Source of the DNA: Microbacteriaceae bacterium
GTDB lineage: Bacteria > Actinomycetota > Actinomycetes > Actinomycetales > Microbacteriaceae
Assembly: GCA_947452675.1 (NCBI GenBank)
Contig: CANGDL010000008.1
Span: forward strand, 1-64,000
Length of the DNA: 64,000 nt
Reading direction: 5' to 3'
Each line of letters begins with the position of its first letter. Positions within the stretch are counted from its first letter, which is position 1. A program made the translations under genes and the position numbers. Under the pieces are notes generated by a model that worked only from the letters and a program-made list of their open reading frames with translations, was not told the origin of the DNA and did no database searches. This document shows positions 4,494-33,915 of this stretch, piece by piece.

Positions 4494-4583
4494 TGGCGGT
4501 GACGGAGGGATTTGAACCCTCGGTGCGCTTTCACGCACACTTGTTTTCGAGACAAGTACCTTCGGCCGCTCGGACACGTCACC
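4494..4583 (-). tRNA. tRNA-Ser (anticodon CGA)
   Basis: A 90-nt class II tRNA. The acceptor stem GGTGACG (from 4583) pairs with CGTCACC near 4498-4504, followed by discriminator G and an encoded CCA (4496-4494). The anticodon arm reads CTTGT-CTCGAAA-ACAAG, giving anticodon CGA for UCG codons. A long variable arm with GTGCG/CGCAC stem follows, diagnostic of tRNA-Ser, and the T loop is GGTTCAAATCC. It ends in a strong terminator, so it is a monocistronic unit, divergent from the CDF transporter gene. Confidence 0.95.
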
Positions 4584-25628: not shown

Positions 25629-28556
25629 TTACTTTACGATGAACTTCTCAGTGGTGATGAAACCACCAGAGATCTTCACGGTAACGGTGTGAGTACCCTT
25701 CTTTAGGTTGTAGTTAAGAACTACGTCAGCGTCAGAAGCCGAAGCCTTTGACCACTTCTTGATGCCGTCAACGTAGAACGCAACAGTCTTGCCCTTGGTG
25801 AATGATGAGACAGCGGTAACGCGGTTGTTCACGATATCGATGTTTGCATCGGTAGCACCGAAGGTGATGGTGGTTGCGCCGGCAACTGACTTGGTTGCGT
25901 CAGTCTGAGCGTATGAAGCGGTAACAACTGCATCGCCTACGTCGTTTGAACCAACGACTAGACGAACAGTTCCAACACCAGTTGCATCGGTGTCAACAGT
26001 ACTTGCTGACAGTGAGCCAACACCCGTTAGAGCAACCTTCACAAGACCAGAGACCTTGACTGGGTTACCTAGTGAGTCCTTGACAAGAACTGAGACGGTT
26101 ACGGTGCGAGAAACCTGTGAAAGCGCAACTGCTGTAACGGTAACGGTTCCCTTGTCATCTAGGGTGGTGATGCCGGTGTAGGTGACCTTTGCAGAAGCGG
26201 TAGCTGCACCAACGGTTGCCGTGTAGGTGATGTCACCTGACGCACGCGAGTAAACAGTAACGCTGTATGCACCGGTTGCATCGGTGTAAACCGATACAGC
26301 TCCAACGCCCATAGTTGCAGTTACGTTGGCATCTGCAGCGTTAGCTGCAACTAGCTGCGCACCTGAACCAGCGATGGTTACAAGAGCACCTGGAACTGGT
26401 GAACCATCAGCCGCAGAAACTACACCAGAGATGGTGGTTCCGTTGTTCAAAAGGTAGTCAGCGAATCCAGCTGCGTTGTTGTCTAGACGTAGGTCGTTAG
26501 TGGCGAAGGTTCCAGCAGTAACAGCAACGGTGGTTGCACCAGCGGTTGCGGTTAGAGCGGTTGGAGCCTTGGTGCCAACGTAAACTAGCACGTCCTTGGT
26601 GATGCCAGAGTTGGTCCAGTTACCGCTGGTGTCCTTGTTCTGAAGAACTGCGTGAACTGTGTAGCTACCTGAAGTTGCGGTAGTTGCGTCGTTGATTGCA
26701 ACTGCAGCCTTACCAGCTGACAATGCAACAGCGTTGGTGAAGGTCGCTGCTGCATTGCTTGACGCACCAGTCAAAGTAACTAGGATCTGGCGAGCGTCAG
26801 TAACACTTGCACCGAACTGGTCGCGTAGGTCGTAGTTAAGAGTGATTGAAGCGCCCTTAGCAACTGAACGAACAGCGGTTGAGTTGGCGTAACCGATGGT
26901 GCCGGTCTCAATTAGGTTGGTCGCAGATGCATCCGCCCAGGTAACCGAAAGAGCACTTGAGGTCTTGTAGCCCTGAGTTGATCCAGCGGCCGAACCATCG
27001 TCCGTAGCCACGTTCTGGTCATCAAGACGAACAACGATCGAAATCGCGTCAGTCTTCGCACCAGTTGCAGTTAGAGGGAAGATTACCTTGCCATCAGCGT
27101 TGGTCGAAGTCGCGAACGAGATCGAGGTGCCGGTGCTTGCAAGGGTCTTTCCACCAGCAGCAACGGTGCTTCCCGATGCAAGTGCAGTGTTGGTGATTGT
27201 TACCAATGCCGGAATACCTGCAGGTGCTGCAGCTTCAACGCGTGAAGCGAGAGTTGCATTGTAGGTCTTCCAGTACTTCACGGTTGATGACACGGTAAGA
27301 GCAGTGGTTCCAGTCTTAGCGTAAGTGCCGTTCCATGAAGTGCTGTGGGTGATTGATGGAGTTGAAACAGAAGAAACGTCAACTGAGGCCGAACCGATGG
27401 TCTGGTAGTTGACGTCGCCACGGCTTGCTGATTCGTACTGAGCCTGGGCCGAGAAAGTACCTGCAGTCAGTGCGGTTAGACCAGTAACGGTTGCACGCAA
27501 AACCTTGTCGGTTGAGTTGTACGAAGCGTTGATGTTCTGGCCGGTTGCACCAGCAGTGTCAGCAGCATTCTTGTTGAAGTCAACCTGAACAGCGTTGGTC
27601 GCGAACTCAGAAATGTTGATGTCAGGTGAAGCAGTTACGTCAGCTGACAAAGAAGTGTCGCCAACCTTTGGAGCAGTAAGTGCCGTGCTCCAAGTGATGT
27701 CAGCGTTCTTGAGGAACTGAACTGAGCGAGTTGGTGAAACATACTCGGTTGAGTCGATAACGCCGTTGCCGTTGTTATCGACCCATGCGGTAACGGTTGC
27801 GGTTGCCGAGGTGTCAGCAGCTGCGGTTGAAACCAAACGTAGAACGTTGTCAACACCAGCTGAGGCGGTGTCGGCGGTGTCAACGACAAATGAACCGTCG
27901 GTTGCGCGGGCGCCAATTGATGCAACGGTTCCGAGGATTGAACGGCTACCTAGAGCTGCAGCTGCGATTTCCGCGCGAGTTGCATTTCCGGTCTCAGAAG
28001 TCTTGGAGATCGCGATGGTGGCAGTGCCGCCAAGGTTTGTGGTTAGTGCTGTCGAAGCGAATGACACAGTACCAGTTGTGGTGTTAACTGCGGTAACAAT
28101 TCGTGCACCGTTGAAAGCTGCCGCATCGGCACCTGTTGCACCCGCAACGGTGATGGTGTCGCCTACAACTAGGCCGTGAGCGGCTGTAGTTACAGTCAAA
28201 ACTGCGGTTCCAGCTGCTGCGGTAAAGCCGGTAACAACTCCACCCGTGTAGGCCATGGCGTTGGTATCGACTGAAGTTGCTGCGTTAACGTCAACGTCAG
28301 CCTTGATTACCTTGCTCGGGTCGGTAACGAGGAACTTTAGTGAGCCGCCTGAAGCGACTGAGTTTGCGAATGCGCCGCTTAGGTCAAGGACCTGATTCTG
28401 CGCGGTGTTGTACTGGGTGCCTGAGGTTGGCGCTAGTGATACAAAGCTGGTGTCAGCTAGACCTGCTGCGTGCGCTGCTGCGCCCGAGAACAAGGTCGTG
28501 CCGAGAGCAACGATTGCACCAAAAGCCAGACCCTTGCGGGTTAGGTTCTTAGACAT
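25629..28556 (-). CDS. Large secreted surface (S-layer-like) protein 1 (975 aa)
   Basis: Starts MSKNLTRKGLAFGAIVALG, a Sec signal peptide with cleavage near AHAAG (about residue 31). The mature protein is extremely rich in Thr, Ala, Val and Ser, nearly Cys-free, and looks like a chain of immunoglobulin-like (Big/Ig-fold) beta domains: repeated strands such as VTVTAVALSQVSRTVTVSVLVKDSLGNPVKVSGLV (about 820-855). The final ~75 residues (from DANIDIVNNRVTAVSSFTKG) are nearly identical to those of the second protein (29681-32221). No sortase LPXTG motif. Highest likelihood: an abundant surface-layer or fibrillar protein. It has a conserved structured 5' leader and operator-like palindromes upstream. 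The RBS is GAAAGAGA. Confidence 0.8.
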   Translation of the reverse strand: MSKNLTRKGLAFGAIVALGTTLFSGAAAHAAGLADTSFVSLAPTSGTQYNTAQNQVLDLSGAFANSVASGGSLKFLVTDPSKVIKADVDVNAATSVDTNAMAYTGGVVTGFTAAAGTAVLTVTTAAHGLVVGDTITVAGATGADAAAFNGARIVTAVNTTTGTVSFASTALTTNLGGTATIAISKTSETGNATRAEIAAAALGSRSILGTVASIGARATDGSFVVDTADTASAGVDNVLRLVSTAAADTSATATVTAWVDNNGNGVIDSTEYVSPTRSVQFLKNADITWSTALTAPKVGDTSLSADVTASPDINISEFATNAVQVDFNKNAADTAGATGQNINASYNSTDKVLRATVTGLTALTAGTFSAQAQYESASRGDVNYQTIGSASVDVSSVSTPSITHSTSWNGTYAKTGTTALTVSSTVKYWKTYNATLASRVEAAAPAGIPALVTITNTALASGSTVAAGGKTLASTGTSISFATSTNADGKVIFPLTATGAKTDAISIVVRLDDQNVATDDGSAAGSTQGYKTSSALSVTWADASATNLIETGTIGYANSTAVRSVAKGASITLNYDLRDQFGASVTDARQILVTLTGASSNAAATFTNAVALSAGKAAVAINDATTATSGSYTVHAVLQNKDTSGNWTNSGITKDVLVYVGTKAPTALTATAGATTVAVTAGTFATNDLRLDNNAAGFADYLLNNGTTISGVVSAADGSPVPGALVTIAGSGAQLVAANAADANVTATMGVGAVSVYTDATGAYSVTVYSRASGDITYTATVGAATASAKVTYTGITTLDDKGTVTVTAVALSQVSRTVTVSVLVKDSLGNPVKVSGLVKVALTGVGSLSASTVDTDATGVGTVRLVVGSNDVGDAVVTASYAQTDATKSVAGATTITFGATDANIDIVNNRVTAVSSFTKGKTVAFYVDGIKKWSKASASDADVVLNYNLKKGTHTVTVKISGGFITTEKFIVK

Positions 28557-28656
28557 GTATGTCTCTTTCTTTTCTTGGTTTTCTCAAGATCCAGGACGGA
28601 TCTCAAGCGGCAACTTCTTGAACCCAGCAACCAAGCAGGAGGGCACAAATTTGTCG
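28557..28656 (-). promoter_or_regulatory. Conserved structured 5' leader of surface-protein gene 1
   Basis: The 36-nt block 28618-28653 is 35/36 identical to 32281-32316 upstream of the second surface-protein gene. Downstream of it a hairpin (minus strand TGAGATCC-GTCCT-GGATCTTG, 28605-28585) differs in sequence from its counterpart but keeps pairing, and a CTTGGTT in the block can pair with AACCAAG just before the ribosome binding site. No known riboswitch class is recognised. The gene-free stretch 28557-28860 holds this leader, the palindrome pair at 28712-28742 and the promoters of the two divergent genes. Confidence 0.7.
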
Positions 28657-28711
28657 CACTCTTAAGTCAACGGAAGGCATTACGGTTCATCACGGTAGGT
28701 TCGCGTGTTCT

Positions 28712-28742
28712 GGCTGGACATGGCGAAGTAATGTCCGGACAT
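28712..28742. promoter_or_regulatory. Paired palindromic boxes between surface-protein gene 1 and luxR-type gene
   Basis: ATGTCCGGACAT (28731-28742) is a perfect 12-bp palindrome. A related half-degenerate box GGCTGGAC (28712-28719) lies with start-to-start spacing 21 bp. A wider inverted repeat TGGCGA/TCGCCA flanks the main box (28721-28747). The same box pair and spacing occur at 32344-32372. Confidence 0.55.
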
Positions 28743-28860
28743 CGCCATTAGTTGTCGGAAGGCAGGATTACATTTCTAATAGAGGCTTTAGGCAAACATC
28801 CATTTAGGTCTCTGGGAACTGCGAGAACGTTGTTCCGAGGAAACTCCGGGGGGGGTAGCA

Positions 28861-29586
28861 ATGACTACAACACAAGGCATCAGCGCTAAAGAGGTCGAGG
28901 TGATTCTCGACGCGATGCTTAAGAGCGACACCGCATCTGAATTCTGCCGATCAATCGTGCACGCAGACTTTACGGGTGACAGCGCCCAGGGCTGCCAGCT
29001 ATTTTTTCTAGATAACAAGTCACGCCTATCAGTGGTTGCGGGTTATGGCCTTGCGGCCGAATCGCTGCAAAACACTCACTCAGAGGTTTCAGCTTGGGAT
29101 GACAACCCGATCTCTCGGTGCATCCGTGAAAAGCAACATCTCTTTGAGGCGAACACTGCTGATGGCAAGAACCTGATTTGTGTGCCGCTCATGAAGGATC
29201 AGATTCCGGTCGGCGCTTTGTGTATAGTCGTCGATTCAAAGGTGAAGGCTCTTCCTTTCGGTGAGGCGCTCATCCCGATCATCAGCAAGCTAGGCGCATA
29301 CATTTTGGCCACCATGGCCACACAGCCTGGAGCCAAGGGTGTTGTTGACCCGAATGCAACCGGTGAAGACCTGACCGGTCGCCAAATTCAGATTCTCGAA
29401 CTGATGGCCGAGGGCATGGTGAACGTTGAGATTGCCGCGCAGATGCTTTTGAGTGAGTCGACCATCCGCCAGGAAACCGTTCGCATCTATCGTGCACTTG
29501 GTGTGCCAAATCGCGCAGAGGCTTCAAAGAAAGCCAAGGCACTCGGCATCATTGGTCGGCGCCCGAACATGCAGGTAGTTTCATAG
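28861..29586 (+). CDS. GAF-LuxR family transcriptional regulator (241 aa)
   Basis: N-terminal ~150 residues look like a GAF sensor domain (SAQGCQLFFLDNKSRLSVVAGYGL, NPISRCIREKQHLFEANTADGKNLICVPLMKDQIPVGALCIV). The C-terminal LuxR helix-turn-helix reads TGRQIQILELMAEGMVNVEIAAQMLLSESTIRQETVRIYRALGVPNRAEASKKAKALGI (about 173-232), complete. It has no receiver domain, so it likely senses a small ligand, redox or second messenger through GAF. Start ATG 28861 is preceded by a run of eight Gs that serves as the ribosome binding site. Divergent from surface-protein gene 1, with a palindrome between, so it probably regulates one or both surface-protein genes (inference). Confidence 0.85.
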   Translation: MTTTQGISAKEVEVILDAMLKSDTASEFCRSIVHADFTGDSAQGCQLFFLDNKSRLSVVAGYGLAAESLQNTHSEVSAWDDNPISRCIREKQHLFEANTADGKNLICVPLMKDQIPVGALCIVVDSKVKALPFGEALIPIISKLGAYILATMATQPGAKGVVDPNATGEDLTGRQIQILELMAEGMVNVEIAAQMLLSESTIRQETVRIYRALGVPNRAEASKKAKALGIIGRRPNMQVVS

Positions 29587-29610
29587 CCGAAGCTAAACCT
29601 GGCCAAACGC

Positions 29611-29643
29611 AAAGAACCCCAGACCATAAGGCCTGGGGTTCTT
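29611..29643. terminator. Bidirectional terminator between luxR-type gene and surface-protein gene 2
   Basis: Twelve-bp stem AAAGAACCCCAG/CTGGGGTTCTT with loop ACCATAAGGC, A-run on one side and T-run on the other; between convergent genes ending 29586 and 29681. Confidence 0.8.
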
Positions 29644-29680
29644 CGTTGCTATGTCGGTTTAGTGACTTAGCGAAGGTTCA

Positions 29681-32221
29681 CTACTTTACGATGAACTTCT
29701 CTACGGCTGAGAAGCCGCCTGAGATCTTCACTGCAACAGTGTGGGTACCCTTCTTTAGGTTGTAGCTGATAACAACGTCAGCGTCAGAAGCCGAAGCCTT
29801 TGACCACTTCTTTACGCCATCAACATAGAACGCAACAGTCTTGCCCTTGGTGAAGGTTGCAACTGCGGTAACGCGGTTGTTGACGATGTCAACGTTTGCA
29901 TCGGTTGAACCGAAGGTTACGGTCTTTGATGCGGTTGCGACGGTTGCGTCAGCAAGGGTGCTGGTTGCGGTAACTACTGCATCGCCAGTCTCAGCTGCGC
30001 CAACGATCAACTTAGCGGTGACCTTACCTGATGCGTCTGAGGTGGTGGTGCCGTTGTTTGCTAGGTAGCCAACACCGGTTGCAGATAGGGTTACGGTTGC
30101 GCCCTGAACTGGGTTGCCGAACACGTCGGTGATGACAGCAGAAACGTCAACTGAACGACCAGCCTGTGAAAGTGCAGCTAGGTCGCCTAGTGCAACAGTC
30201 TTACCCGCGGTTGAGCCAGCCTTGTCGAAGGTAACAACAACGGTTGCTGAGACGGTGCCGTTAGTAACGGTCAGGGTCTTAGCACCGGTGGTGTTTGACG
30301 CTACGTAGATTACAGCTGAGGTTCCCTGAGCAACCTTTGAAACTGAATCCTTAGCAACGGCTGCACCATCGATTGATAGGAAGACGCCGGTGCCAGAAAC
30401 GGTTAGCTTCTCGCCTGCGTTTGAACCAGTCAAGGTGACCTTCGCCCAGGTGGTGCTTGCTGCAGGAGCGACATAACCGGTTGCAGCAGTGTTGCTCTGG
30501 TCAACGGTGGTTAGGGTCTGCTTCTGTGCGCCAGCTGAAGTCCATGCGCCGTTGTTGATGCCGTTGGTTGCATCGATTGCCGGAGCAACGGTGAACGAGT
30601 AGGCAGCTGAACGGGTAACGATGGTGTTGCTAACGGTGTTGATGGTTGAACCCCAGGTGACGTTACCAGTTGAACCAGTGGTGCTTGCCTGAAGGGCTGC
30701 ACCAACGGTGATGTCTGCGGTTGAGTCAGTTACTGGAGTGATAACTGCGGTTGCCTTACCAGCAACAACTGCAATGTACTGGGTAACAGTAGCTGCAGTG
30801 GTGGCGGTTACGACTAGACGCTGGTTGGTTAGTGCTGAAAGCACGCCGAACTGGTCCTTGACTGAGTAGCTCAAGGTGGTAGCGGTGTTCTTGTTAGCAG
30901 CAACGGTTGCAGATGAGTTGTCGTCTGATGCGGTGTAGGTTGCGTCAGTCTGAGTTCCAACTGCATAGGCGTCAAAGTTCTGAGCCTTGAAGTCAGCGGT
31001 TAGAACGTCACCAGCAGATAGGCCAACGCTCGAGATGTTTAGTGTTGCAACACCTGAAGCATCGGTGGTTAGCGCGAAAGTAGCAGCGTTCAGAGTGGTC
31101 TCTGAGGTGTACTTGGTGCCGTTCACTGTAACTGAGATTTCGGTTACGCCAGTTGATGCTGGGCGTAGATCGGTTGCGGTCGTGGTTGCAGCAACGCTAC
31201 CAACAATTGCAACGCCAGCAGCAGCAACCGGAGTGGTTGCAGTGTTTAGCGCGGTCACATTAGCAACGTATGAACCGTTGGTGCGAACTGCGCCAGAGGT
31301 TAGTGCGTTGGTTCCGGCAACAGTAGCTGCGGTTAGCGACGAAATGGTGCGAGCAGTTGCCGCAGCAGATGCAGCTGAACCAAGAGCGGTTGCTGAGTAG
31401 GTGTTAGTTGGGGTTGACGGCACTGAATCATAGGTGTTGGTTGCGTAAACGGCGCGAGCGGAAACCGAAGCTGAAGCTGCTAGAGCAGAAACAGTCATGC
31501 TGAACTTGCCAGTGGTTGAAGAGTAGCTAACACCGGTCGCGGCACCAGTTGGGTAAGCGCCTGAGCCGACCTTGAACTCAACACCTAGTGCAGAGTTGGT
31601 TGATCCAGTTGCAGTTAGGAAGGTGGTGCGGTTAGCCTGCTCGATGTTTAGGTCTCCCCAAGCAACGGTAGCTGAAACGGTGGTGTCACCGGTGTTTGGC
31701 TGTGCAAGGGTCACTACTGGAGTGATGTCTGCAAGCTTCTTGAAGGTAACGGTCTTGACGGTGTTCCACTCGCCTGCAGATACTGCACCGTCGTTGTTAG
31801 CGTCAACGAACGCGGTAACAGAAACAGATGAGGTAACGGTAGCGTCGTCGGCCTTTAGGCCGATGTAGTTAACGGTGGTTGCAGAAGCGCTTGAAGCGGT
31901 AACTGCAGATGATGAAAGGCTTACTGCCTGTGAGGTTGTAGGTGATGCAACTGCTGAGGTGCCAACACCATAGTGAACAGCTGAGTTAGCGTCTGAAGTG
32001 ACGATGTACTTTAGCTGTGCGTAAGAAGATGGGGTGAAGCCAGGTGCGAAGGTGGTTGCAAGGTTGAAAACCGAGCCAGCCACTGCGTTGTATGAGGTAC
32101 CTGCTGATGGAACAACGTTTAGCTCGTTCGCTGCGAATGCTGGGGTGCCAGCAAATACGGTAGCGCCAAGAGCAACGATTGCACCAAGAGCTAGACCCTT
32201 ACGGTTTAGGTTCTTAGACAT
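29681..32221 (-). CDS. Large secreted surface (S-layer-like) protein 2 (846 aa)
   Basis: Paralog of the 975-aa protein. Signal peptide MSKNLNRKGLALGAIVALGA with cleavage near PAFAAN (about residue 30). Mature region rich in Thr, Ala, Val, Ser, Asn with Ig-like repeats (for example SLTAATVAGTNALTSGAVRT, and VDVSAVITDVFGNPVQGATVTLSATGVGYL near 725-755). The last ~75 residues match protein 1 almost residue for residue (DIVNNRVTAVATFTKGKTV ... LKKGTHTVAVKISGGF), so they likely share an assembly or cell-wall-anchoring domain. Start is ATG 32221, as the same MSKN start and RBS context (GAAAGAGACATA) as in gene 1; an upstream in-frame codon at 32257 falls in the conserved leader. Encodes probably the second of two alternative or co-assembled surface proteins. 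Confidence 0.8.
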   Translation of the reverse strand: MSKNLNRKGLALGAIVALGATVFAGTPAFAANELNVVPSAGTSYNAVAGSVFNLATTFAPGFTPSSYAQLKYIVTSDANSAVHYGVGTSAVASPTTSQAVSLSSSAVTASSASATTVNYIGLKADDATVTSSVSVTAFVDANNDGAVSAGEWNTVKTVTFKKLADITPVVTLAQPNTGDTTVSATVAWGDLNIEQANRTTFLTATGSTNSALGVEFKVGSGAYPTGAATGVSYSSTTGKFSMTVSALAASASVSARAVYATNTYDSVPSTPTNTYSATALGSAASAAATARTISSLTAATVAGTNALTSGAVRTNGSYVANVTALNTATTPVAAAGVAIVGSVAATTTATDLRPASTGVTEISVTVNGTKYTSETTLNAATFALTTDASGVATLNISSVGLSAGDVLTADFKAQNFDAYAVGTQTDATYTASDDNSSATVAANKNTATTLSYSVKDQFGVLSALTNQRLVVTATTAATVTQYIAVVAGKATAVITPVTDSTADITVGAALQASTTGSTGNVTWGSTINTVSNTIVTRSAAYSFTVAPAIDATNGINNGAWTSAGAQKQTLTTVDQSNTAATGYVAPAASTTWAKVTLTGSNAGEKLTVSGTGVFLSIDGAAVAKDSVSKVAQGTSAVIYVASNTTGAKTLTVTNGTVSATVVVTFDKAGSTAGKTVALGDLAALSQAGRSVDVSAVITDVFGNPVQGATVTLSATGVGYLANNGTTTSDASGKVTAKLIVGAAETGDAVVTATSTLADATVATASKTVTFGSTDANVDIVNNRVTAVATFTKGKTVAFYVDGVKKWSKASASDADVVISYNLKKGTHTVAVKISGGFSAVEKFIVK

Positions 32222-32319
32222 TATGTCTCTTTCTTTCTTGGTTATCCCAATCTTCAAGACGAAGATCAGGCGTCAGCGTTTTGAACCCAGCAACCAAGCA
32301 GGAGGGCACAAATGTGCTG
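32222..32319 (-). promoter_or_regulatory. Conserved structured 5' leader of surface-protein gene 2
   Basis: Carries the 36-nt block (32281-32316) shared with gene 1 and the hairpin TGATCTTC-GTCTT-GAAGATTG (minus strand, 32268-32248), aligned with the gene 1 hairpin: three of eight base pairs differ with both partners changed, and the pentaloop GTCYT is kept. CTTGGTT/AACCAAG pairing is also retained. Confidence 0.7.
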
Positions 32320-32335
32320 CACGTTAAAAGGTAAC

Positions 32336-32372
32336 GGACAAATGTCCGGACTATTACGGTATTTGTCTGGAC
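32336..32372. promoter_or_regulatory. Paired palindromic boxes upstream of surface-protein gene 2
   Basis: GGACAAATGTCCGGAC (32336-32351) contains GTCCGGAC at 32344; GTCTGGAC lies at 32365-32372, start-to-start spacing 21 bp, as upstream of gene 1. ATTACGGT (32353-32360), also seen at 28679-28686 and 33908-33915, sits between the boxes. Confidence 0.55.
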
Positions 32373-32387
32373 TTTTTGAGAATTATT

Positions 32388-32414
32388 AAAAACCCCCTAT
32401 TTCTAGGGGGTTTT
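32388..32414 (-). terminator. Terminator of membrane sigma-factor gene
   Basis: Eleven-bp stem AAAACCCCCTA/TAGGGGGTTTT with a 4-base loop; on the minus strand it follows the stop at 32462 and is succeeded by a T-rich run. It insulates the surface-protein gene 2 promoter from the upstream gene. Confidence 0.85.
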
Positions 32415-32461
32415 CTAAGTTTTGTTACGTGCCGTGTCGCCTATTAGGCGATCGATTTCGG

Positions 32462-33850
32462 CTATTTAGACGGTGCTGTGATTGCCAGGACAGCATCCGA
32501 GACCTTTGGCGAACCAGCGCCGAACGTTAGCTGAAGCGAAACGTGGGTTCCGGCCAACGGCGAGCGATCCCAAACGATGTTGTGCTCGTCAAATGGAAGC
32601 TTGACAATGCCGCTCAGGCGCAGGGTCTGCACACCGGCATCGTTCTGGATAGACACATCGGTGTCTTGAAGGAAAGCGAAGTACTTATAGCCGTTGATCG
32701 TGAAGTCGAACATAGCTGAATCTAGGTGGGCAACACCGTTGGTGGTGGTTAGTGAAACAACGGCGTGGTTGCCCAGGTTGTCATAGACGTCATAGTTGTC
32801 AACCAGGCTGGCAGCTGTGCTGACCGAAGCTGTGCGGATGGCACCGGCAGAGTTTGGGTTGGTTGAGAAGATCTGGCGAACCTGCGCGGCCGAGAATGGG
32901 CTGCTCGATGGGCTCGGCTGGTCACTTGGCAGGGCCGATGCGCTGGCCGAAGGCTGTGAAACCGGCTGGGTGATCGGGCTGGCCGAGTCTGAAGGCTTGG
33001 TCGATGGCCGAGCTGCCTCGGTTGAGCCGGTGGTCGAAGTGTTAGAAGAGTTTGACGCGCTCGGGGTTGACGAAGCCGCGGCCGGGTTGCGGTCTCCCTC
33101 AGCAATAACACTGTTCTGGTTGCGGTTGCCGATGTTCACGAAGGCGCCAACTGCAAGCATCAAGAACAACACGAAGACCATTGCCTGAGCGCCGACCTTC
33201 TTGGCCTCGTGCGCTGCCTTGCGAGCGGCAACCGAGAGAATCGCCGAAACCGACATACCGGCGGTGTCCACGTTGTCGCCAAGAAGGGCCTTCTTGAAGG
33301 CTGCGCGTGCGCGGAAGATGAGTTGAAGGGTTGCGTTCTCGCTTAGGCCAACCTGAGATGCGATCTCGCGGGTCGACTTCTCTTCATACATGGAAGCCAA
33401 AAGGACTTCGCGGTGGCGCGGGTTTAGCTTGCTGAGCGCAAGGCGAACAATCGCTGCGTCTTCGATGTGCTCCATCTCGCTGCCAACCTCGGCATCGTTC
33501 GAGGCAGGCTCGGCAATCTCGTCGATGTTGTTGATGATGGCGCGGCCGGATGCGCGGATTACGTCGAGGCAGAGGAGGCGAACCTTCCACTTCAAGAAGC
33601 GAAGCACACCGATTTCAGAGTCAAGCTCAGGCAGTGTGACCATCAGATAAAGGAATGCGTCTTGCACCACTTCGTCGACCTGGTGCTGGCTGCGCAAAAA
33701 GCGGCGAGCATGGCGTTCGAGGTGTGGACGGAAGCGGGTATAGATGTTGGCGAAGTCTTGGGCGGACCAATCCTTCAGCACCGCTGCGCCGTGCGCGCGG
33801 AACTCAGGGTTCTCGACGTCGTCTAAAGACTCGTCATCCCATTCGGCCAT
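32462..33850 (-). CDS. Membrane-anchored sigma-70-family (ECF-like) protein with extracytoplasmic domain (462 aa)
   Basis: Domains in order: sigma-70 region 2 at about residues 35-100 (FANIYTRFRPHLERHARRFLRSQHQVDEVVQDAFLYL, then FLKWKVRLLCLDVIRA); region 4 at about 135-185 (LNPRHREVLLASMYEEKSTREIASQVGLSENATLQLIFRARAAFKKAL), with a complete HTH; one transmembrane helix at about 220-240 (AMVFVLFLMLAVGAFVNIG); a Ser/Thr/Pro-rich linker of ~85 residues; and a C-terminal ~125-residue domain outside the membrane, ending AVLAITAPSK. This fuses a DNA-directed sigma factor to an external sensor in one chain; some ECF groups have C-terminal membrane extensions. A separate anti-sigma gene is not seen. 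Start ATG 33850 preferred over 33859 since AAGAGG is too close to the latter. Possible targets are the neighbouring surface genes. Confidence 0.8.
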   Translation of the reverse strand: MAEWDDESLDDVENPEFRAHGAAVLKDWSAQDFANIYTRFRPHLERHARRFLRSQHQVDEVVQDAFLYLMVTLPELDSEIGVLRFLKWKVRLLCLDVIRASGRAIINNIDEIAEPASNDAEVGSEMEHIEDAAIVRLALSKLNPRHREVLLASMYEEKSTREIASQVGLSENATLQLIFRARAAFKKALLGDNVDTAGMSVSAILSVAARKAAHEAKKVGAQAMVFVLFLMLAVGAFVNIGNRNQNSVIAEGDRNPAAASSTPSASNSSNTSTTGSTEAARPSTKPSDSASPITQPVSQPSASASALPSDQPSPSSSPFSAAQVRQIFSTNPNSAGAIRTASVSTAASLVDNYDVYDNLGNHAVVSLTTTNGVAHLDSAMFDFTINGYKYFAFLQDTDVSIQNDAGVQTLRLSGIVKLPFDEHNIVWDRSPLAGTHVSLQLTFGAGSPKVSDAVLAITAPSK

Positions 33851-33915
33851 TTGATCCATACCTCTTATTGTGTCAGACCTAATAAGTAACTGACTAGAGG
33901 CTGATTTATTACGGT

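Follow-up and report, generated by a model that had tools for sequence, protein, structure and literature searches.

Two genes on the minus strand of a 64,000-nucleotide (nt) stretch from a Microbacteriaceae bacterium (GenBank assembly GCA_947452675.1, contig CANGDL010000008.1, positions 1 to 64,000; hereafter the window) are preceded by leaders so similar that the question arises whether they form a functional RNA element or are alike only because the genes are paralogues. Gene A (25629..28556) encodes a protein of 975 amino acids without a Pfam or NCBIfam family, and gene B (29684..32221) one of 846 amino acids without such a family above the cut-off; both products have a signal-peptide-like start, as judged by eye, and a cell-surface location is probable for both. 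Comparison of protein B with solved structures by sequence gave no match. The two genes are related, and their similarity continues from the leader into the first codons. As described in the initial annotation, both leaders carry the block CA(A/C)ATTTGTGCCCTCCTGCTTGGTTGCTGGGTTCAA, identical at 35 of its 36 positions, and both contain the strings CTTGGTT and AACCAAG, which are complementary at all seven positions. As judged from comparative sequence analysis, these leaders belong to a real family of structured RNA leaders that is absent from Rfam and occurs in two groups of actinobacteria.

RNA folding gave the same two stems, P1 and P2, in both leaders. P1 is a long, interrupted stem that takes in most of the 36-nt block, with a 5' arm lying partly upstream of CTTGGTT and an apical loop that holds UGCUUGGUU. 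This second, longer stem was lacking in the initial annotation, which had described the hairpin directly following it, P2. For that hairpin, the three compensated pair changes and the loop GTCYT were recovered, whereas its length of eight pairs had to be revised: P2 has 10 pairs and a 5-nt loop (GUCCU in A, GUCUU in B), and four of the 10 pairs, including the outer one (U-A or C-G), differ on both sides between the copies and all still pair. Leader A together with the start codon of its gene (28554-28556) spans 28554..28663 on the minus strand; P1 lies at 28610..28657 (5' arm 28641-28657, 3' arm 28610-28625, with the apical loop between them), the loop motif CUUGGUU at 28629..28635, P2 at 28583..28607, and the tail AACCAAG, beside the ribosome-binding region, at 28574..28580. 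Leader B with its start codon (32219-32221) spans 32219..32326 on the same strand, with P1 at 32271..32323 (5' arm 32304-32323, 3' arm 32271-32288), CUUGGUU at 32292..32298, P2 at 32246..32270 and AACCAAG at 32237..32243. Stem positions are based on computed folds and pair counts, for leader A also on a pair list, and those of loop and tail on sequence and conservation. A covariance model matched both leaders over its full length (positions 1-109 of 109) with 128.1 bits for A and 122.4 bits for B, both being among the four leaders used to build this model. Taken singly, leaders A and B fold only moderately better than dinucleotide shuffles (z of -1.93 and -2.46, respectively). No terminator-like site is present inside either leader, which argues against transcription attenuation.

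Homologous leaders were collected from related genomes. A search with protein B, which is encoded in a genome of 1.4 Mb, found a match in 17 of 60 genomes of the window's genus, and the leaders read before 15 genes matching its N-terminus (the window's two included) all contained both CUUGGUU and AACCAAG. Applied to 67 genomes of the genus, the four-leader covariance model found 24 matches, spread over 18 genomes; 22 of the matches, in 16 genomes, were kept (E up to 0.004). All 22 leaders end at a gene start, and those genes that were translated begin with a signal-peptide-like sequence. When 398 genomes of the family, from 85 genera, were searched with a 22-leader model, 17 had a match: eight in the window's genus, seven in one other genus, and two that were dropped. 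The second genus holds 18 copies in 13 of its 22 genomes, giving a total set of 40 leaders. The two genera are here called the Rhodoluna group (the window's genus) and the Aquiluna group, both being presumptive names. Matches in genomes G310 and G308 (E of 0.06 and 0.08) and in G131 and G134 (E of 0.004 and 0.009) were dropped. CUUGGUU is lacking in the printed stretches of all four; the genes that follow dropped matches are of other kinds, and G308 gave no gene in the printed frame.

Comparison of the homologous leaders shows P1 and P2 to be RNA structure. In the alignment of all 40 leaders (39 distinct rows), 93.4% of the cells of paired positions can pair, compared with 69.1% after shuffling and no more than 50.6% when the partners are slid, and the first 22 leaders gave 92.6% compared with 70.4% in shuffles; the model had fitted both alignments to the structure, a procedure biased towards it. 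All 23 tested pairs of P1 and P2 show changes on both sides somewhere among the 40 leaders. The initial annotation had named uncompensated loss of pairing in related genomes as the result that would refute it; the leaders there proved instead to retain P1 and P2 through compensating changes. Independent of the structure-fitted alignment is an arm-swap test, which used 17 non-redundant leaders of the window's genus (five near-identical rows of the 22 were omitted), excluded swaps of similar arms, and ignores the family tree beyond this. The native arms of P1 pair with -20.9 kcal/mol compared with -12.7 kcal/mol after swapping (10 of 254 swaps were as stable as the native combination), and those of P2 with -13.0 compared with -7.0 kcal/mol (14 of 266 swaps); none of 20000 permutations reached the native total, for P1 as well as for P2. 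G-U cells (147) far outnumber A-C cells (12) in the 40 leaders, which fits folding of the RNA with the sense of the gene. The conserved positions are those of the loop, the tail and the ribosome-binding region, while the stem sequences drift, and no conserved ligand-binding core was seen in the leader alignment beyond the paired strands. Two copies of genome G204 (L042 and L056) have a longer P2 that carries a common UUUCACGUG inside stems of differing sequence.

The view of the initial annotation that the leader is an RNA element of no known Rfam family is supported by the arm-swap test, the pair counts and the Rfam searches. A scan of the whole window against Rfam 15 at the gathering score returned a single match, a tRNA at 4497-4583, and nothing on the leaders. 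At E up to 10, the region of leader A (28500-28900) gave two chance-level matches, neither on the leader strand; leader B was covered by the whole-window scan only. A scan for the loop-tail pattern in one genome per species for 84,980 species returned 22 stretches, 19 of them in records titled Rhodoluna, Aquiluna, Microbacteriaceae or with a broader actinobacterial name. The three remaining matches, in Thermaerobacter, Bacteroidetes and Calothrix records, were attributed to chance: two are without a model match up to E 0.01, and the third scores 23 bits (E 0.006). The pattern had no match in a viral collection, and exact 20-mers had none in the genome and viral collections, from which records close to the window's own genome may be left out. 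A 28-mer searched with up to three mismatches matched the window's own genome alone among 299 family genomes, which indicates that it is the fold, and not the sequence of the block, that is conserved. Within what was searched, the leader family was seen in the Rhodoluna and Aquiluna groups and not elsewhere.

Of the 40 leaders, 39 have CUUGGUU in the apical loop of P1 and one has CUUGGUG, and in all 40 AACCAAG stands just before the ribosome-binding site; complementarity between the two strings is 7 of 7 in 39 leaders and 6 of 7 in one, and their pairing would give a 7-bp helix, P3. The genes themselves may be strongly expressed: ranked by the share of C- or G-ending codons among two-fold codons, B is first and A third of the 49 mechanically called window frames with 600 bases or more, ranks that fit high expression. 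That the leader controls translation or stability, as proposed in the initial annotation, is a fair inference. The explanation we tentatively prefer is a lineage-specific, 5'-terminal structured leader that sets the translation or stability of abundant surface-protein mRNAs and in which P1 and P3 may exchange. Transcription would probably start a few bases before P1, so that the mRNA would open with P1, followed by P2, a short linker, AACCAAG and the ribosome-binding region. The leader would most likely raise and set the output of very abundant mRNAs by protection of the 5' end combined with control of the region directly upstream of the ribosome-binding site. Its sequence-specific working part would be the nearly invariant loop and tail, which probably pair in exchange with the lower part of P1, so that the tail next to the ribosome-binding site would be free in one of the two resulting states but not in the other.

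Rough geometry bears on whether P1 and P3 can coexist. Assuming ideal A-form helices and ignoring bends at internal loops, a distance of 46 to 53 Å has to be bridged when P1 has 18 to 20 layers, towards which P2 contributes at most about 18 Å and each linker step about 6 Å. In the computed folds, the linker between P2 and AACCAAG measures 1 nt in 15 leaders, 2 nt in 10, 3 nt in three, 4 nt in six, 5 nt in five and 7 nt in one. By this estimate, linkers of up to 3 nt (28 of 40, including both of the window) fall short, whereas the longer ones (12 of 40) would just reach. In most copies, P3 could therefore hardly coexist with a complete P1, and pairing in cis would be possible only once the lower part of P1 had opened; the other way out would be P3 between molecules. 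Leaders A and B are near balance between the two states, at -0.2 and 2.0 kcal/mol, by nested-fold energies that omit the pseudoknot itself.

Several results weigh against the preferred explanation. The P3 pairs never covary in the 40 leaders; since all seven hardly vary, covariation cannot test P3, and the pairing of CTTGGTT with AACCAAG that the initial annotation put forward is neither supported nor refuted in this way, its complementarity being confirmed. Genome G351 has two further, divergent leaders, one matched at E 8.6e-4 and one, after its sigma factor gene, missed by the model; the loop sequences are CACUUUGG and CAGUUUGG, and the tail is AACCUAAG, so that both strands have changed. 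P3 is weakened in both by a central mismatch and in one also by a lost end pair, which speaks against a strict need for it; both sides have gained one base at a matching place. By the nested-fold energies, with the pseudoknot again left out, the P1 state is the more stable one in 36 of the 40 leaders; the difference averages 5.2 kcal/mol, with a range from -2.5 to 14.1 kcal/mol. Finally, the predicted unpaired fractions of tail, ribosome-binding region and start codon are 0.57, 0.59 and 0.46 for native leaders compared with 0.50, 0.58 and 0.45 when the upstream part is shuffled. With openness so nearly the same, the idea that the upstream fold as such opens or closes the ribosome-binding region is unsupported. 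A conserved upstream reading frame beginning at the UUG of the loop was likewise considered and found unsupported in the six leaders examined.

Among the other explanations is a translation switch by an enhancer pseudoknot: P3 and the top of P1, with the lower P1 open, would form beside the ribosome-binding site and be required for efficient translation. The seven nearly invariant complementary positions speak for it, as do the UUGG of the loop, discussed below, and the arrangement in most leaders of the second type, which by eye have two bases before and none after CUUGGUU between the closing pairs and thus look pseudoknot-like. Given that P3 lacks covariation, is weakened in G351 and competes with a P1 state favoured in most copies by energies that leave the pseudoknot out, such a switch is rather unlikely. 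The closest known case of such pairing next to a ribosome-binding site is the leader of repZ of plasmid ColIb-P9, whose translation Asano and Mizobuchi reportedly found in 1998 to depend on a pseudoknot. There, too, the loop of a hairpin can pair with bases immediately before the ribosome-binding site; in the present leaders, in contrast, one inserted hairpin and a short linker separate the loop from its partner, the gene is a chromosomal one for a surface protein, and no leader reading frame or antisense RNA was found, neither having been searched for systematically. The loop's UUGG also fits the YUNR motif of U-turn loops, which one report describes in hairpin-loop recognition (PMC4485353), and could speed pairing with the tail; in contrast to the systems covered there, the partner here lies in the same RNA, and no antisense RNA has been identified.

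That the loop and tail stay nearly invariant while the stems drift would be expected if a protein or a trans-acting RNA recognised one of them and their complementarity were secondary. We consider this doubtful as well, because seven matching positions in two conserved strings are improbable by chance in a short leader, and no candidate factor has come to light, no search for one having been made. A leader in which loop and tail pair between molecules, wherever the linker is too short with P1 intact, could sense mRNA concentration; if so, mRNAs A and B would, on becoming abundant, dimerise or cross-pair, limiting or balancing surface-protein synthesis, an arrangement that we regard as quite improbable. 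Much the same holds for a riboswitch or other small-molecule sensor: a structured leader before genes of one apparent function would suit it, but little sequence is conserved besides loop, tail and ribosome-binding region, no Rfam family matches, and leaders A and B lack terminator-like sites. Least credible of all is that the leaders are alike solely through duplication of the genes, with hairpins by chance. The relatedness of A and B, extending into the first codons, is what it would predict, but the stems have diverged with pairing kept, the arm-swap result contradicts it, and in three genomes (G319, G301 and G287) the leader instead precedes a protein of 310 to 324 amino acids with a different C-terminus; one of these proteins, compared with B, gave a weak match over 72 residues (E 0.001). 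These three genomes also bear on a possible autogenous leader, bound by the product of its own gene, for which one homologous product behind every copy would be expected.

Structured leaders before genes of abundant surface proteins have a parallel in the stabilising leaders of S-layer protein mRNAs, for example that of Lactobacillus slpA. The likeness is one of description, and the abundance is presumed in the present case; a conserved loop and tail of this kind are, to our knowledge, not known from slpA-type leaders. A literature search found no paper on an S-layer in Rhodoluna or Aquiluna or on a candidate structured RNA in Microbacteriaceae, and a term search within a paper on Rhodoluna RNA-seq and one on the Luna-1 group found no passage on genes A or B. 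The RNA family is new and belongs to two groups of aquatic actinobacteria with small genomes. In this locus, these bacteria devote to a pair of exported proteins a sigma factor of their own, a regulator of the LuxR type and a structured leader. If the leader works as proposed, it would show post-transcriptional control of a bulk surface product in such cells and could be used directly in expression studies; Rhodoluna lacicola is reported to be open to genome editing (PMC11577799).

Upstream of gene B lies a gene for an extracytoplasmic function (ECF) sigma factor with regions 2 and 4 (32462..33859, minus strand), and between the two surface genes a gene for a LuxR-type (GerE) regulator (28861..29586, plus strand), whose GAF-like part stays below the cut-off. 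By eye, the sigma factor has a hydrophobic stretch and a C-terminal extension; it is possibly membrane-tethered and sensing the cell surface. The sigma factor occurs in 18 of 67 genomes of the genus (E up to 1e-30), including all 16 with strong leader matches, in each of which a leader follows the sigma match within 600 nt, in the same orientation; none of the 49 genomes without it has a strong leader match. Many of these genomes are incomplete, which affects sigma and leader counts alike. The two genomes with the sigma factor only are G351, with its divergent leaders, and G326, where another gene follows the sigma gene. Nine further loci were compared with the window. The sigma gene is present in eight of them, and in seven of the eight a LuxR-type gene also lies between two surface genes. 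G344 has a single surface gene and lacks the LuxR-type gene, and the leader of G095 has no sigma gene beside it. A sigma-factor search of 26 chosen genomes gave a match in four, and in G095 and G157 the sigma gene lies elsewhere, with no leader directly after it in the stretch read. Sigma factor and leader are thus strongly linked in the window's genus and less tightly in the second.

Promoter-like sites stand in a fixed place before the leaders. Gene A has ACCGTGA, 17 nt and CGTTG at 28668..28696, and gene B ACCGTAA, 17 nt and CGTTA at 32332..32360 (both on the minus strand and both read with a pattern drawn after looking); a search of the minus strand across 28500-33000 gave no sigma-70-type site. 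The pattern ACCGTRA or GCCGTAA, 17 nt, NGNTR, drawn and widened after looking, precedes all 15 leaders of the first set, and a slightly wider one 31 of 40. Of the nine leaders without it, one is that of G354 and eight belong to the second genus, where AGTAAC (six) or GATAAC (two) is present instead. In 30 of the 31 cases the site ends 1-4 nt before the modelled leader, and in one it overlaps by 1 nt. A loose form of the pattern, with up to one mismatch, had 12 matches in the window's own genome compared with 24 for the backwards pattern, so that the pattern alone is without weight and only its fixed place before the leaders counts. A terminator-like hairpin on both strands at 32389-32414, between the sigma gene and the promoter-like site of B, makes it probable that gene B has its own transcript. 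A further site, with one mismatch to the pattern, lies 27 nt before the start of the sigma gene (33887..33915, minus strand). Near the end of contig C20 of the same assembly, the start of the sigma gene is present a second time as a partial copy (G000:C20:21259-21287, L111), with an exact match to the promoter pattern; a strain variant, a duplication and an assembly effect are candidate explanations for this copy. The sites at the sigma gene and at the C20 copy would fit autoregulation of the sigma factor, without proving it.

A palindrome, TGTCCGGACA (up to two mismatches), lies near both promoter-like sites, at 28732-28741 and 32343-32352 of the window. Among 18 paired leaders, it is found at -76 to -78 from the leader start in eight of nine A-type copies and at -21 to -26 in all nine B-type copies, five of which have a second palindrome 20-21 bp further upstream; 0.06 per region are expected from shuffles, and the A and B labels of G290 were assigned by similarity. 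The palindromes of the B copies overlap the promoter spacer, and those of the A copies lie upstream of the promoter, an arrangement through which the LuxR-type protein, whose own gene lies between A and B, could have opposite effects on the two.

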